From assembly GCF_011758745.1 (NCBI RefSeq), contig NZ_JAANOV010000001.1:2914001-2978000 (forward strand): a DNA stretch of 64,000 nucleotides. The letters are read 5' to 3'. The DNA comes from Amycolatopsis granulosa (GTDB lineage Bacteria; Actinomycetota; Actinomycetes; Mycobacteriales; Pseudonocardiaceae). The notes under the pieces were generated by a model that saw nothing but the letters and a program-made list of their open reading frames with translations, was not told where the DNA came from and made no database searches. The stretch's first letter is position 1; each line of letters opens with the position of its first letter. The translations under genes and the position numbers were made by a program. Shown here piece after piece: positions 17,695 through 22,647 of the stretch.

Positions 17695-17934
17695 ATGTCG
17701 GACCAGCAGTGGGTCGTGGTGCTGCACGACGACGACGTGAACTCCCACACCACCGTCGCGTTCGCGGTCGCCCGCGCCTACGGGCTGCCCGTGGAACGCG
17801 GGTTCAAGATGGCCCACGACGTCGACACGACCGGCGAGGGCTGCCTGACCTGGTGCACCACCCGTGAGCAGGCCGAGGCCCTCGTCGCGGACCTCCAGTT
17901 GTGGGGCCTGCACGTGACGCTCCGGAGCCGGTAA
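17695..17934 (+). CDS. ClpS-like adaptor with altered substrate pocket
   Basis: A 79-residue protein of the ClpS fold: WVVVLHDDDVNSHTTVAFAV, a middle GFKMAHDVDTTGEGCL and the end AEALVADLQLWGLHVTL. ClpS hands substrates with N-terminal degrons to the ClpAP or ClpCP protease. Compared with the usual NDD-TPM and VH pocket residues, this protein has HDD, no TPM and VD, so it may not read N-degrons as the classical form does. It also lacks the usual 20-residue N-terminal extension. ATG 17695 follows GGGGGAG. A 2-base gap separates it from the DUF2017 gene, its usual partner. Confidence 0.7.
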   Translation: MSDQQWVVVLHDDDVNSHTTVAFAVARAYGLPVERGFKMAHDVDTTGEGCLTWCTTREQAEALVADLQLWGLHVTLRSR

Positions 17935-17936
17935 CG

Positions 17937-18406
17937 ATGGCGGGATACCAGTTCAGCGCACGCCCGGCCCCGGGCGGGACGGTCGAGATCAGCATGGCCG
18001 GGCCGTTCGCGGCGCGACTGCGCACGGAGGTCGCCGGTCTGCTGCGGGCGCTGGAGCCCGGCGTGTTCCGGCGCCGGCGCGGGCTGCCGGACGCCGAACT
18101 GTTCCCCGATGCCTACGACGACCAGGCGCGGAGCGCGGGCTTCCGCGAACGGCATGGTGCCGATATGCGCGCGCTGCTGATCGAAGCCGGCAGCGCGTGC
18201 TCGCGCAATGCGTTCCGGTCGACGAGCTCGTGCTCTACGACCAGGCGGTCGCGGACTGGTTCATCGTTCTCGCGCACGCCAGGAACCGGCAGCACCGGCA
18301 CGGACGGGGAGACCGGCGGCTCCGGATCCGCGACTGGCTGCGGGCGATCCAGGAGCACATCGCGCTCGCCTCCGGTGGCACCGCGTGCCCCACCTGCAGC
18401 CACTGA
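17937..18406 (+). pseudogene. DUF2017 family gene with a frameshift
   Basis: The first part (17937 to about 18185, frame of ATG 17937) and the second (about 18186-18406, shifted by one base) together read as one DUF2017-like protein of about 156 residues: FPDAYDDQARSAGF in the first part, LAQCVPVDELVLYDQAVADW and RDWLRAIQEHIALA in the second. DUF2017 genes regularly follow clpS in actinobacteria. One base is missing near 18183-18187, with no slippery heptamer to suggest programmed shifting. Either the gene is broken or the assembly has an error. Confidence 0.7.
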
Positions 18407-18539
18407 GCGGATGGTGTCCACACTTCACCCGGATGCACCAGTGCCCAGGCTCATGGTCCGGCGCGCTCTACCGATAGTTTGGTAACAGGCCGCGCACGCG
18501 GCCGGACGGACCGCTAGCTCGAGGAGAACCCGCGTCACT

Positions 18540-18800
18540 ATGGCCGGAGTGGAAGAGATCCGCGCTGGGATCGCGATGGCGAACGAGAAGTGCAATGCCG
18601 GCGTCGCAGCCCTCCAGCAGGCCGCTCAGGCACTCGAGGAGGCCCAGCAGATCCTGGGTCAGGTCACCTCGGGCAGCACGCAGCCGGAGGTGACCCAGGC
18701 GAACAGCATGCTCGCCGAGGCGCTGCAGGGCATCAGCGGGCAGCAGAACACGATCCAGGCCGCCGTGTCGTCGGCCGAGTCGTACGCCGCCCGGCTCTAG
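18540..18800 (+). CDS. Small helical protein, first gene of FtsK cassette
   Basis: An 86-residue, cysteine-poor, nearly all-helical protein rich in Ala, Gln and Glu (GVAALQQAAQALEEAQQILG, then EVTQANSMLAEALQG and a C-terminal helix) with a short Ser/Thr/Gly/Pro break near residue 47. That is the size and hairpin shape of WXG100 proteins, but there is no WxG motif. It begins a tightly packed run with the next gene (stop TAG immediately followed by ATG). I do not recognise a proven function; some actinomycete DUFs of this size behave the same way. Confidence 0.7.
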   Translation: MAGVEEIRAGIAMANEKCNAGVAALQQAAQALEEAQQILGQVTSGSTQPEVTQANSMLAEALQGISGQQNTIQAAVSSAESYAARL

Positions 18801-19049
18801 ATGTTCTCGCTCCCCGAGCTGCAGGCCCAGCTGGCCGCGTTCCGTGCGAAACTGGCCGAGGCAAGCGAACACACCAACCGTGCGGTGGAGCTCTTGGACG
18901 AAGCACGCGAAGTGATCGTCAACGCCCATGAACACGCCGAGGCGTGGGTGCCGCCGGAACTCGCGGCGGCGGCCGACCGGCTCGGCAAGGACGCCGACCG
19001 GCTGCGCGCCGCGGACGACCTGGTGAACACCTACCTGGCCCGGCTGTAG
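18801..19049 (+). CDS. Small coiled-coil protein, second gene of FtsK cassette
   Basis: An 82-residue helical protein with heptad-like spacing in LQAQLAAFRAKLAEASEHTN and AADRLGKDADRLRAADDLV and a WVPPEL break in the middle. Its ATG touches the stop of the gene before, and it ends 7 bases before the FtsK gene, so all three are translated as a unit. It probably pairs with its small neighbour or docks on the ATPase; this is inference from operon layout. Confidence 0.7.
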   Translation: MFSLPELQAQLAAFRAKLAEASEHTNRAVELLDEAREVIVNAHEHAEAWVPPELAAAADRLGKDADRLRAADDLVNTYLARL

Positions 19050-19056
19050 GCGCGCG

Positions 19057-21780
19057 ATGCCGAAGCCCAACGAGCAGAAACGCCGGGTCGTCGCGGCCCT
19101 GGGCGCCATGCGCGAGAAGCTCGGCATGGTGCTGGGCGCCGCGCAGGCCGGACGCCAGATCGCCGAGACCGAACTGGCCCGGCTGCAGCTGGAACAGCAG
19201 ATCGTGCGGGCCGGCATCGACGCCGCGGCCGGGGACGAGCACCTCGCCGCCGCACTGCGCAGCCCGGTGATGGCCGGAGTCCGGGACAAGCTCAACGCGC
19301 AGCACGCCGCGTTCTACACGGACGCGGCGACCGTGCCGGCCCGGCTGCGCGACCTGGTCGCGCAGGTCGCGCCCGGACCGGCGAGCCTGCCGCCCAGCGC
19401 GTGGCTGGGCCGGCCCGGTCGGGAACCGCTCAGCCCGCCGCCGCTGTGGCGCATCGGCTCGTCCACGATGGACTCTTCCGGCCCGTTCCCGGTGGTGGTG
19501 CCGCTGCTGGACGACTCGCACCTGGCGATCACCACCGCCGTGCACACCCGCCGCGCGGTCGAATCGCTCATCGAGGGCCTGCTGCTGCGGGTGTTCAGCG
19601 CGATGGAGCTCGGTGCGGTGCGGGTGCACCTGTGGGACGTCGCGCAGCTGACGGCCGTGCTGCCGAACCTGTATTCGCTGTCCCGCACGTCCGCGGTCAC
19701 GCTGTACGACCCGGACCAGCTCGGCGTCCTGCTCGACGAGCTCACCGGGCACATCCGCCGCATCCACGCCCAGACCATGCAGTCCGGGCACACGTCACTG
19801 CGCGGGCTGCGCGACCAGCTCGGGCAGCGGGTCGAGCCGTGGCGGATCGCGGTGCTGTTCGGCAACGGCGAGACCTGGGCGCCCGAACCGCTGCGCGAGC
19901 TCAAGCGCATCGCCGGCGCCGCGCTGGCCGCCGGCATCTCGCTGATCACCGTGGACGTCCCGGCGATCCTGGGCGGCTCCTTCGAAAACATCCGCATGCT
20001 CGACGAGCACCACGCGGCGACCAGCATGACCGGGCCCGACCTGGTCGTCGACCTGGACCCGCCGATCCCGTCGACCGAGGTCAGCGCCGCCGCCAGCCGG
20101 CTCGCCGACGCCCTGATCGAAAAGCAGGGCGGCCCGCGGTCGTTCCGCGATTTGCTGCCGGCCGAGCTGGGCCAGGAGAGCTCCGCGCGCGAGCTGCGCG
20201 CGCCGGTCGGGTTCTACGAGGGCGATCCGGTCGAGGTGGTGATCGGCGACGCGAGCCCGCACGCGCTGATCGGCGGGCCGAGCGGGTCGGGCAAGACCAA
20301 CTTCCTCTACGCCCTGCTCGGCAGCCTCGCCGCGCGCTACCCACCGGACGAGCTCGCGCTGTACCTGCTGGACTTCAAGGAGGGTGTGTCCTTCGCCGGG
20401 CTCGCGCCGGGCCGCCGCGACGCGAGCTGGCTGCCGCACGCGCGGTTGATCGGGGTGAACGTCAACACCGACCGCGAGTTCGGCCTGGCGCTGCTGCGGT
20501 TCCTCGCCGACGAACTGCGCCGCCGGTCGGCCGCGGCGAAGGAGCACGAGGTCACCGACCTGGCCGGGCTGCGCCAGCAGGACCCGGACGGGCACTGGCC
20601 GCGGATCGTGGCGGTGATCGACGAGTTCCAGTACCTATTCGCGGGCCGGGACGGCGTCACCAACCAGGCGACGGCGCTGCTCGAGGACATCGCCCGCCGC
20701 GGCCGCGCGCAGGGCATCCACCTGATCCTGGCCAGCCAGGACATCGCCGGGATCGACGCGTTCTGGGGCAAGCCGGCCGTGTTCGAGCAGTGCACGCTGC
20801 GCATCGCGATGCCCAAGGCGCGGCGCGTGCTCGCCGAGACCAACAACGCCGCCGTCGCCGCGCCGAAGTGGCACGCGGTGATCAACCACGACTCCGGAGT
20901 GGCGCACGGCAACCAGCTCGCGCACGTGCCCGACGCGAGCAGCAAGGACATCTTCTCGACGCTGCAACGGGAACTGTGGGAGCGCTACGCCCGGGAACAC
21001 GAGCGGCCACGGCTGTTCGACGGCGCGCACTCACCGGTGCTGGAGCACTCGGCCGCGTACGGCGCGCTCACCACGGGCGGGACGCCGCGGGCGCTGCTGG
21101 GCCAGTCGATCGACGTGGCCGACACCGCGTGCGCGGTCGAGCTGACCGGGGCGCCCGGCCGGAACCTGGCGGTGATGGGCACGGCGATCGCCGAGGCACT
21201 GTCCATCATGGACGCCGCGGCTCGGTCGCTCGGCAGGCAGTACCCGCCGCACGAGGTCGAGTTCCTGGTGTCCTGCCTGGTGGACCGGTGCGCGTCCGCG
21301 GTCGGCGAGCTGGCCGACGGTCTCGAGGCCGACGGGCACCGCGTGGTGCGGCTGAGTGACGTGGAGCTCGGCGAGCACATGGCGAAGCTCGCCGAGGAAC
21401 CACCCGAGCACGCCAGGATCCTGCTGCTCTACGGCGTGGACGGAGCGTTGCCCATCCTCGAGCAGAAGGCACCCGGTCAGCTGAGGAGCGGGCTCGACCA
21501 CTTCCGGGTCGTGCTCAAGCAGGGTCCCGGAAAGGGCACCCACACGATTGGCTGGTGGCGCAGCACGGCGCGGCTGAAGGACACGCTCGGGTTCGCCGGC
21601 ACCGACGACATCGGGGCATGGGCGGCACTCGACGTGCAGGGCGCGGAGCTGAGCCAGTTCGCGGCCGGACAGGTCGTGCACTGGTCGCCGCGGCCAGGAC
21701 GCGCGTTGTTCTTCGACCGCAGCACGCACGTGTCTCCCGAGGTGATGATTCCCTTCGACCGCCCGGAGCACCAGACATGA
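19057..21780 (+). CDS. FtsK/SpoIIIE-type ATPase of a small-protein cassette
   Basis: A 907-residue ATPase without membrane segments. A helical start (1-120) is followed by a P-loop-less fold (about 140-350, HLWDVAQLTAVLPNLYSL), then the active domain with Walker A GGPSGSGKTNF (406-416) and Walker B IVAVIDEFQYLF (517-528, acid pair 522-523), and a third, degenerate domain whose Walker-A position reads ELTGAPGRNLAVMG. That triple layout recalls EccC/YukB translocase motors of type VII secretion, but here only the middle domain looks able to bind ATP. Substrate may be protein or DNA. Its stop overlaps the next ATG by 4 bases. Confidence 0.88.
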   Translation: MPKPNEQKRRVVAALGAMREKLGMVLGAAQAGRQIAETELARLQLEQQIVRAGIDAAAGDEHLAAALRSPVMAGVRDKLNAQHAAFYTDAATVPARLRDLVAQVAPGPASLPPSAWLGRPGREPLSPPPLWRIGSSTMDSSGPFPVVVPLLDDSHLAITTAVHTRRAVESLIEGLLLRVFSAMELGAVRVHLWDVAQLTAVLPNLYSLSRTSAVTLYDPDQLGVLLDELTGHIRRIHAQTMQSGHTSLRGLRDQLGQRVEPWRIAVLFGNGETWAPEPLRELKRIAGAALAAGISLITVDVPAILGGSFENIRMLDEHHAATSMTGPDLVVDLDPPIPSTEVSAAASRLADALIEKQGGPRSFRDLLPAELGQESSARELRAPVGFYEGDPVEVVIGDASPHALIGGPSGSGKTNFLYALLGSLAARYPPDELALYLLDFKEGVSFAGLAPGRRDASWLPHARLIGVNVNTDREFGLALLRFLADELRRRSAAAKEHEVTDLAGLRQQDPDGHWPRIVAVIDEFQYLFAGRDGVTNQATALLEDIARRGRAQGIHLILASQDIAGIDAFWGKPAVFEQCTLRIAMPKARRVLAETNNAAVAAPKWHAVINHDSGVAHGNQLAHVPDASSKDIFSTLQRELWERYAREHERPRLFDGAHSPVLEHSAAYGALTTGGTPRALLGQSIDVADTACAVELTGAPGRNLAVMGTAIAEALSIMDAAARSLGRQYPPHEVEFLVSCLVDRCASAVGELADGLEADGHRVVRLSDVELGEHMAKLAEEPPEHARILLLYGVDGALPILEQKAPGQLRSGLDHFRVVLKQGPGKGTHTIGWWRSTARLKDTLGFAGTDDIGAWAALDVQGAELSQFAAGQVVHWSPRPGRALFFDRSTHVSPEVMIPFDRPEHQT

Positions 21781-22133
21781 ACGCCGGCCAGGAGTACAAG
21801 CAGATCGTCGGGCTGGCCGGCAAGGCGGCGCAGGAGCTGCGGGCGTGGGAGCGGCGGCGAGCCGAGGAGCTGGACGCCGAGATCGCCGCCGCGGAAGCCG
21901 CCGTGGCCGAGGCCCGGGAGCGCGAGACCCGCACCGTGCAGGGCGCGCAGCACTGGTGGCGGATGGCGCAGGACAACGTGAGCCGCCTGCCCTGGCTCGA
22001 GGTGGGCGCCGACCCCGCGCCGGCCCCGCACGCCTACGCCTCCCGGCTGGACCTGTACCTGCGCGAGGTCAAGGAGGCGTACCAGGAACTGGTCGACGCC
22101 GTACTGTCACTGGGCTGGCGCGCGCGGCGGTAG
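21777..22133 (+). CDS. Coiled-coil protein coupled to the FtsK gene
   Basis: A 118-residue protein with a long helical core (ELDAEIAAAEAAVAEARERE) and a C-terminal helical part including LYLREVKEAYQELVDAVLSL. It starts inside the ATPase stop (ATGA), so its amount is tied to the ATPase. No known domain is recognised. It may serve as a tether or adaptor. Confidence 0.75.
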   Translation: MNAGQEYKQIVGLAGKAAQELRAWERRRAEELDAEIAAAEAAVAEARERETRTVQGAQHWWRMAQDNVSRLPWLEVGADPAPAPHAYASRLDLYLREVKEAYQELVDAVLSLGWRARR

Positions 22134-22301
22134 CTAGTTGGCCGGGCGCATCCAGGTCTCCGGCTCGAGCGTGTCCGGCTTCGGTGTCGGACGGCGCACG
22201 TAGACCCGCGCCCAGGTGAGGTCGCCGCGCAGGGTGGCCGGCACCGCGGGCGCGACGTCGCGGCGGGAGAGGTGCTCGACCGTGGCTCGTGTCCAGTGCA
22301 T
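22134..22301 (-). CDS. Possible small protein convergent to the cassette
   Basis: A 55-codon frame with ATG 22301 that ends right against the coiled-coil gene's stop. It is rich in Arg, Thr and Pro (TWARVYVRRPTPKPDTLEPE). No ribosome site or family support; it could be spurious. Confidence 0.25.
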   Translation of the reverse strand: MHWTRATVEHLSRRDVAPAVPATLRGDLTWARVYVRRPTPKPDTLEPETWMRPAN

Positions 22302-22328
22302 GGTTGTCAGACGTTGCGCGGGTGTGGT

Positions 22329-22346
22329 TGGTTCCTCACGGAACCA
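22329..22346. promoter_or_regulatory. Inverted repeat upstream of YbaB-like gene
   Basis: TGGTTCC-TCAC-GGAACCA, perfect 7-base arms, 50 bases upstream of the GTG at 22396. A candidate operator for the YbaB-like gene. Confidence 0.4.
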
Positions 22347-22395
22347 CTGGGGAGTCGGTGACGGGCGATGACCGACGGAGCGAAAAGAGGTCCGG

Positions 22396-22647
22396 GTGAA
22401 CCACGATCTGACCACCAGGTCCGTCGAGGAGCAGCCGGCCGCCCGGCGCCGCCAGGCCGCGCAGCAGGTCACCACGGCCCAGGATGACTGGGGGCTGGTC
22501 GAGGTCGGTGTCTCGCCCAGTGGCGAGGTCATCGAGGTCGCCGTCAACTCGGCGCTGTTCGAGCAGGTGCAGCCGATGGACCTCGCCGAGGCGATGCTCC
22601 AGGCCGCCCGCGCCGCTCAGCGCCGGGCTCGGCAGCTGCACCGCTGA
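22396..22647 (+). CDS. YbaB/EbfC-like small protein
   Basis: An 83-residue protein with the YbaB-type strand-strand-helix: LVEVGVSPSGEVIEVAVNS, then a C-terminal helix AEAMLQAARAAQRRARQLH. YbaB proteins bind DNA as dimers; in actinomycetes similar small ones often sit beside WXG100-type genes. GTG 22396 follows AGAGG. It is separated from the FtsK cassette by about 260 bases but on the same strand, so membership in the system is likely but not shown. Confidence 0.7.
   Translation: MNHDLTTRSVEEQPAARRRQAAQQVTTAQDDWGLVEVGVSPSGEVIEVAVNSALFEQVQPMDLAEAMLQAARAAQRRARQLHR

Follow-up and report, generated by a model that had tools for sequence, protein, structure and literature searches.

A conserved four-gene cassette with a soluble EccC-like ATPase in Amycolatopsis granulosa, probably part of a toxin-handling type VII-like machine

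Results

Organization of the cassette

The 64-kb window analysed here (the whole stretch of 64,000 nucleotides, to which all coordinates refer unless stated otherwise) belongs to the complete, 5.62-Mb genome of Amycolatopsis granulosa and contains, at genome position about 2932540, a cassette of four genes (18540-22133; Table 1). They encode two paralogous helical hairpin proteins (hairpin 1 and hairpin 2), a soluble ATPase and a small coiled-coil protein. The TAG of hairpin 1 directly abuts the ATG of hairpin 2, and the start of the coiled-coil gene overlaps the end of the ATPase gene via ATGA. These junctions, the single intact P-loop of the ATPase between two degenerate ATPase folds, its lack of a membrane helix, and the absence of a WxG motif and of EccB from the unit had been noticed in a preliminary description made from the letters, and all were borne out. 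The same description counted a YbaB-like gene as a fifth member and overlooked a minus-strand gene downstream of the coiled-coil gene. The leader 5′ of hairpin 1 carries a ribosome-binding-site-like sequence and presumably marks the start of the operon; a promoter scan found no sigma-70-like promoter upstream of hairpin 1. The ATPase is 94% identical to its counterpart in Amycolatopsis methanolica.

The ATPase

The entire ATPase contains one G-x4-GK[ST] motif, at residue 407 (Walker A GPSGSGKT, residues 407-414; Walker B IVAVIDEF), and its Kyte-Doolittle maximum over 19 residues is 1.84. Its AlphaFold model shows three alpha/beta domains. EccC is the best whole-chain structural match of this model, and the two degenerate domains match the DUF and D3 domains of EccC by structure. 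By these computations, the ATPase keeps the fold order of EccC (DUF-like domain, one active FtsK domain, D3-like domain), with a coiled coil replacing the membrane helices. Pfam assigns FtsK_SpoIIIE and weak generic ATPase models to it, and no gamma domain. A label of anti-phage defence was rejected, since the PADLOC matches (SspH and mad8) span only the central ATPase domain.

The hairpin proteins

Hairpin 1 is predicted to consist of helices 4-42 and 49-85 joined by a GS turn (AlphaFold, pLDDT 90.9) and ends in SYAARL. Hairpin 2 has the turn AWVPPEL, a W-x-P-P turn being frequent in this protein, and ends in TYLARL; the two are paralogous (hhalign probability 94.8 over 79 columns). Among distinct tails, 51 of 55 from hairpin 1 and 64 of 74 from hairpin 2 end in [YF]xx[RSTKQE]L, compared with 0 of 601 other open reading frames (ORFs) of the flanks, most of these controls being chance frames. 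Six aligned hairpins of a distant branch, whose ATPase is about 30% identical, have the same ending, and P0001 aligns with them at a probability of 29.9 in the C-terminal half alone. Neither hairpin has a WxG motif. TIGR03930 matches P0002 at E 0.078 only, and a fold search with P0001 returned generic helical hairpins, in which CFP10-ESAT6 (3fav, E 0.70) and EsxA:EsxB (4lws, E 1.8) stand among many unrelated rows. Tandem stand-alone genes for 86-aa hairpins, remote from the cassette, are found at L223:6965-7846 (three) and L226:7239-7805 (two).

Conservation of the unit

ATPase relatives and their flanks were collected as 57 loci from named genomes and further loci from other genomes. Among them are 97 distinct loci with an ATPase of the cassette type (tblastn score of at least 580), 93 of which extend far enough to either side. 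Of these 93 loci, 91 keep hairpin 1 together with hairpin 2; the coiled-coil gene is likewise kept in 91 (tblastn), and the whole four-gene set in 89, a co-occurrence exceeding chance. Thus, homologous genes rarely occur apart, and pairing with an ordinary FtsK locus was not seen, the best FtsK match of the genome being a different, distant gene; the preliminary description had named either outcome as evidence against its proposal.

Among 150 Pseudonocardiaceae genomes, the ATPase profile matches 119 (the worst best-match E is 2.6e-216), and the hairpin-1 profile matches the same 119; neither found the cassette in the other 31. The ATPase is present in 35 of the 46 genera sampled, mostly as a single, chromosomal copy. 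This distribution, together with the conservation of the locus, makes the cassette a stable, vertically inherited chromosomal unit of most Pseudonocardiaceae sampled. Two genomes (G463 and G495) carry a second ATPase copy, again adjoined by a hairpin, and three others (G453, G488 and G565) carry weaker second copies with no hairpin-1-type neighbour among the matches listed. In genome G050, a second copy (L103:6947-9868) is a pseudo-ATPase of the family, lacking the P-loop (GRSDADRS) and the Walker B Glu, and a hairpin 2 (L104:9919-10998) is extended by a proline-rich linker and a C-terminal domain without assignment.

The YbaB-like gene is correctly named (Table 1), and it is not a member of the unit. 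A tblastn search located it in 13 of the 87 loci L009-L095, a set in which some genomes are counted twice and the flank is often limited to 1.5 kb; in each of the 13, the ATPase has 79% identity or more. Of 62 distinct loci whose downstream sequence extends for 2.5 kb or more, 2 have the gene. The overlooked minus-strand gene occurs mostly in the same loci (tblastn, L009-L095).

Hairpins fused to toxins and carried by putative integrative elements

The hairpin-1 profile also matches longer ORFs, of two kinds. In the first, proteins of about 230-320 aa begin with the hairpin and end in a DddA-like double-stranded-DNA deaminase toxin domain (PF14428, E 6e-15 to 7e-29 in four hairpin proteins scanned). 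An overlapping downstream gene is present in 8 of 11 toxins inspected. Seven of these 8 genes were scanned and all encode Imm1 (PF14430); 6 adjoin hairpin toxins and 1 adjoins a signal-type toxin. A profile of toxin hairpins (13 rows, no operon protein among them) aligns to the full 86 columns of the hairpin-1 profile (hhalign probability 98.7, E 3.6e-16), so that the hairpin is, by computation, homologous along its full length to the N-terminal domain of DddA-like toxins. In the proteins scanned, this domain has no Pfam family above cut-off, with a weak LXG match (E 0.0054) in one. The new observation is that this hairpin, with its [YF]xx[R/S]L ending, also forms the N-terminus of DddA-like toxins that are paired with Imm1.

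In the second kind, the hairpin is the C-terminal part. Three such proteins (L219, from the window's genome, L220 and L222) lie on putative integrative conjugative elements, so called from an FtsK-like gene and its neighbours (Pfam gave DUF3987 and sub-threshold FtsK). The one in the window's genome (L219:4558-5430, within G000:C1:2752000-2768000) has 290 aa with a hairpin-1 homologue at its C-terminus. Six such ORFs were inspected, and in all 6 a GGAGG-type ribosome-binding sequence and a start codon lie in frame ahead of the hairpin (Table 1), so that a free hairpin may also be made.

Hairpins are joined to other C-terminal domains as well. One kind is represented by L373 and L360, which were scanned without a Pfam match, and by L359, L361-L363 and L374, grouped by eye; another by L368, scanned with sub-threshold Pfam matches only, and L367, grouped by eye. 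There was no NCBIfam match for L373 or L368. Both kinds (L359-L363, L373 and L374; L367 and L368) are candidates for new toxin domains.

Hairpin toxins accompany the ATPase

A search for PF14428, regardless of hairpins, was positive in 75 of the 150 family genomes, including 7 of the 31 ATPase-negative ones. From the matches listed, 90 PF14428 loci were read, of which the search itself supplied 30 and the other 60 were picked by hand. The toxin count covers only loci found by PF14428, with 81 distinct ORFs judged and 8 dropped as too short; membrane segments were sought only in ORFs not scoring as hairpin. In ATPase-positive genomes, 51 of 70 toxins have the hairpin (46 of 70 by the hairpin-1 profile alone), 0 have a membrane- or signal-like N-terminus and 19 have neither. 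In ATPase-negative genomes (L274-L285), 0 of 11 have the hairpin, 10 are membrane- or signal-like and 1 is neither. No reversed decoy passed the hairpin score. Fisher values for the toxin contrast, kinship ignored, are 4.5e-6 and 5.9e-12. Helix 2 ends with the motif [YF]xxx[LIVM] in 37 of 51 toxin hairpins; shuffling predicts 10, and at the corresponding place of helix 1 the motif occurs in 0.

At E 1e-5, the toxin-hairpin profile matches 116 of the 150 family genomes, all of them within the ATPase-positive 119, and 0 of the 31 ATPase-negative ones; in many of the 116 the match is hairpin 1 itself. Searched against 394 genomes of the class, it gives 39 matches in 38 genomes. For 32 of these the ATPase is no more than 3 kb away; 6, in fragmented genomes, fall on a different contig, and the remaining one is the putative integrative-element copy in the window's genome. 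Of the 150 family genomes, 149 have ESX EccB: every one of the 119 ATPase-positive genomes and 30 of the 31 ATPase-negative ones. An ordinary ESX system cannot account for the toxin contrast, because EccB is near-universal.

The wider ATPase family

More distant ATPase relatives (22-31% identity in alignment A1) have varied neighbours. On a Rhodococcus plasmid (L096), the relative adjoins genes for Hsp70, TPR and GrpE proteins, and an Hsp70-like start is seen by eye upstream of the relative in L101, L102 and L105. This Hsp70-linked branch comprises Hsp70, ATPase, coiled-coil and small hairpin genes and is partly on plasmids. A Caballeronia plasmid (L097) has WXG100, VWA, CARF, PP2C and kinase genes next to the relative; a Helicobacter plasmid (L099) has a WHH nuclease and a SUKH immunity protein; further relatives adjoin TerD genes. 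In Frankia-like genomes (family f32, a name assigned by inference), there is one hairpin, 3′ of the ATPase. The coiled-coil neighbour has a strongly hydrophobic C-terminal stretch (Kyte-Doolittle 2.5-3.2) in L096, L101, L102, L105 and L172. Judged by position, these coiled-coil proteins are probably the equivalents of P0006, and their C-terminal stretch looks like a membrane helix.

Neighbouring features

Upstream of the cassette (17695-18406) lie a ClpS-like gene (PF02617, E 7.7e-8) and a second gene, which is frame-shifted in the window and open in a sibling locus (L010, ATPase 98% identical). The two are reminiscent of the ClpS/DUF2017 pair; the fragment has no Pfam match. Among L009-L095, the pair is found only in L010 and in the window's own genome (L009). 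A tRNA-Ser(GGA) gene upstream was considered as a feature of the unit and rejected: it occurs in 7 of 20 loci scanned, in Amycolatopsis, Prauserella and Qaidamihabitans only, and is absent from one Amycolatopsis and from every other locus scanned outside those 7. Because of this patchiness, it is regarded as local synteny. Outside Amycolatopsis, a gene with a conserved DCSDEEPGC motif often precedes the cassette (L107, L108, L109, L111, L112 and L309, by eye), and a GNAT-like gene lies downstream in some loci (by eye).

Table 1. Features of the cassette, its surroundings and related hairpin genes. Positions are window coordinates, ATPase residues (aa) or locus names.
Feature	Position	Strand	Basis
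Leader with ribosome-binding-site-like GAGGAGAA, 5′ of hairpin 1	18518..18539	+	sequence
Hairpin protein 1 (P0001, 86 aa)	18540..18800	+	ORF reading, AlphaFold, profile search
Hairpin protein 2 (P0002, 82 aa)	18801..19049	+	ORF reading, hhalign
Soluble FtsK/EccC-like ATPase (P0003, 907 aa)	19057..21780	+	ORF, Pfam, AlphaFold, structure search
ATPase: coiled coil/long helix	about 4-104 aa		
ATPase: degenerate EccC-DUF-like domain	about 130-357 aa		
ATPase: active domain	about 379-584 aa		
ATPase: degenerate D3-like domain	about 653-904 aa		
Coiled-coil protein (P0006, 118 aa)	21777..22133	+	ORF, tblastn
Small conserved gene between cassette and YbaB-like gene	22134-22301	minus	
YbaB-like ORF (83 aa)	22396-22647	+	PF02575, E 1.4e-6
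In-frame start before element hairpin	L219 (ATG), L220, L222, L224, L230, L242		

Discussion

Comparison with known systems may provide some clues regarding the function of the cassette. Soluble three-domain EssC/YueA-like FtsK ATPases associated with WXG100 proteins are described as 'mobile versions of T7SS', that is, of type VII secretion systems (Zhang et al. 2012, PMC3482391), and EssC-like ATPases of CoCoNuT type III-A, having an N-terminal coiled coil and no membrane helices, are proposed to act in defensive secretion by a differing mechanism (PMC11090510, citing Anantharaman et al. 2012). Homology of the cassette ATPase to such proteins is detectable (23% identity to a Caballeronia CoCoNuT-type protein, alignment A1). 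It too has three FtsK-like domains of which only the middle one is active, an N-terminal coiled coil and no membrane helix. In contrast to the mobile T7SS, the cassette has no WXG100 neighbour, its hairpins showing no profile link; it is not sporadic or mobile, being mostly single-copy in 119 of the 150 family genomes; and its hairpin, with a distinct [YF]xx[R/S]L tail, doubles as the N-terminal module of DddA-like toxins encoded elsewhere. The cassette is best read as a vertically inherited, WXG-less variant of these known soluble ATPases. The preliminary description came close with its type VII motor and substrates without a channel, given the structural match to EccC and the fusion of the hairpin to toxins; its word 'stripped' was not quite right for a stable form of ATPases already described.

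With EccC of ESX systems and EssC of T7SSb, the ATPase shares the order of DUF, ATPase and D3 domains, the DUF and D3 being of EccC type, but it has one ATPase domain fewer and no N-terminal membrane helices, its hairpins are not WXG100 partners and EccB is not beside it. In T7SSb, according to Klein et al. 2022 (PMC9600955), LXG toxins require a WXG100-like pair of targeting proteins and an FxxxD motif. The pair Lap1/Lap2 of that account is likewise small and helical with a short aromatic motif (FxxxD; [YF]xxxL in the cassette), and LXG toxins likewise have a conserved N-terminal domain and a variable C-terminus. This likeness is drawn from descriptions, and the cassette differs in that its partners are placed beside the motor and not beside the individual toxins and in that its motif ends in Leu, not Asp/Glu. 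The hairpin toxins share PF14428 and PF14430 with the DddA-like (SCP1.201) toxins that are paired with Imm1. As in polymorphic toxin delivery, one trafficking module, the hairpin, is common to the machine and to immunity-paired toxins. The cassette works like the mobile T7SS and LXG systems, yet it has neither the marks of ESX nor WXG100 partners and mobility. No description of the hairpin module or of its link to the ATPase was seen in the literature examined, largely outside subscription journals, nor in the available parts of PMC11217815, PMC12839542 and PMC7159879.

Because its hairpin is a module found on antibacterial toxins of related bacteria, the cassette is probably an unrecognised toxin-handling machine. 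We propose, with a probability of roughly 0.6, that it encodes the motor and adaptors of a toxin-handling, probably toxin-exporting (putative), type VII-like machine.

Several observations weigh against this proposal. First, the whole-chain superposition of the ATPase on EccC is poor (TM 0.37, rmsd 16.8 Å; model pTM 0.45), so that the resemblance holds domain by domain. Second, no channel protein was recognised by Pfam among the four cassette proteins; P0006 has no membrane helix (Kyte-Doolittle 0.19), and the EccB genes of the genome lie only at 2639341 and 1454504. There was also no Pfam match to EccD, EccE or mycosin among the cassette proteins, a search aimed at these families not having been made. 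Third, the hairpins have no profile link to the WXG100 proteins of related loci (hhalign probabilities 0.8 and 1.3), and in 3 of 4 groups the conservation of hairpin 1 exceeds that of the ATPase (72.7% versus 69.0% in the largest), unlike a fast-evolving effector. Fourth, the 11 toxins of ATPase-negative genomes come from 4 genomes of 2 genera, and a very small number of evolutionary events may thus underlie the toxin contrast; among the 70 toxins of ATPase-positive genomes, 19 did not score as hairpin, and resemblance to hairpin 1 had been the initial reason for selecting the loci behind 7 of the 13 rows of the toxin-hairpin profile. Finally, only about 65 of the 116 genomes matched by that profile have more than one match (by eye), so that many cassettes are without visible cargo. 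The window's own genome has no DddA-like gene by the PF14428 search, and its only other hairpin match lies on the putative integrative element.

Among the alternatives, the one that survives best is that the hairpin toxins leave by the ordinary ESX system (T7SSa), the ATPase and hairpins handing them over to it as an alternative EccC-like subunit or as a chaperone that acts in the cytosol before secretion. EccB accompanies the ATPase in all 119 genomes, the fold of the ATPase is EccC-like, and some ESX systems naturally have EccC as two chains, one in the membrane and one soluble (EccCa/EccCb). We consider this unlikely: 30 of the 31 ATPase-negative genomes have EccB, yet none of the 31 has a hairpin match at E 1e-5, the cassette is remote from both EccB genes of its own genome, and the hairpins lack WxG and match no WXG100 profile.

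Slightly less likely still is an intracellular machine of conflict or quality control, in which the ATPase would gather hairpin-tagged, nucleic-acid-acting proteins in the cytosol without export. The soluble ATPase, the C-terminal hairpins on proteins encoded by putative integrative elements, and relatives next to CARF/VWA/PP2C/kinase, TerD and Hsp70/GrpE genes, from which such a role is arguable, agree with it. However, the deaminase fusions are paired with Imm1, typical of antagonism between cells; the same toxin family has membrane- or signal-like N-termini where the ATPase is absent; and the coiled-coil partner of five distant relatives has a C-terminal stretch like a membrane helix.

A housekeeping protein-remodelling complex, with toxins and mobile elements later taking over its hairpin as a tag for docking, would suit a mostly single-copy, chromosomal unit of 35 of 46 genera sampled, with a highly conserved hairpin 1 and many genomes without another hairpin match; it is improbable given its homologues in conflict-type loci elsewhere, and the cassette is not essential to Pseudonocardiaceae, since it was not found in 31 of 150 genomes. 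A DNA-translocating FtsK-type motor, the DNA-processing machine of the preliminary description, has no positive support beyond the shared FtsK fold and is very improbable: the Pfam matches are FtsK_SpoIIIE and weak generic models, the membrane and gamma domains of FtsK/SpoIIIE translocases are lacking, EccC is the best whole-chain match, the DUF-like and D3-like domains are kept despite having no intact P-loop, and the partner module is fused to toxins.

If the cassette is indeed a type VII-like toxin-handling machine, it may work as follows. The hairpins would play the part that the partner proteins Lap and EsxB play in type VII systems, with the conserved terminal [YF]xx[R/S]L ([YF]xxx[LIVM] where the toxin hairpin ends) serving as a recognition arm. 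The catalytically dead D3-like domain could read this arm, as EccC reads its signal peptide. Hairpin binding would then switch on the central ATPase, and the toxin would be unfolded or threaded. The coiled coils may anchor the motor to a membrane partner, either encoded elsewhere or yet to be recognised, and a machine with a soluble motor would in this way export toxins (putatively). A bolder version, which we put forward tentatively and at somewhat less than even odds, is that of a so far unrecognised secretion system in Pseudonocardiaceae and Frankia-like actinomycetes, in which the soluble motor recognises the hairpin as a new module by its C-terminal [YF]xx[R/S]L arm and exports hairpin-tagged polymorphic toxins, including those of DddA type, without an EccB/D/E channel, and in which integrative elements carry this module in order to exploit or obstruct the machine.

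The soluble 'mobile T7SS' ATPases, known since 2012 from gene neighbourhoods, would thereby gain a testable cargo and a recognition signal. DddA-like deaminases are the family behind the mitochondrial base editors. The present observations suggest a handling route for many such deaminases in actinomycetes, and they raise the question of how a type VII-like motor could function in secretion when it lacks membrane helices.

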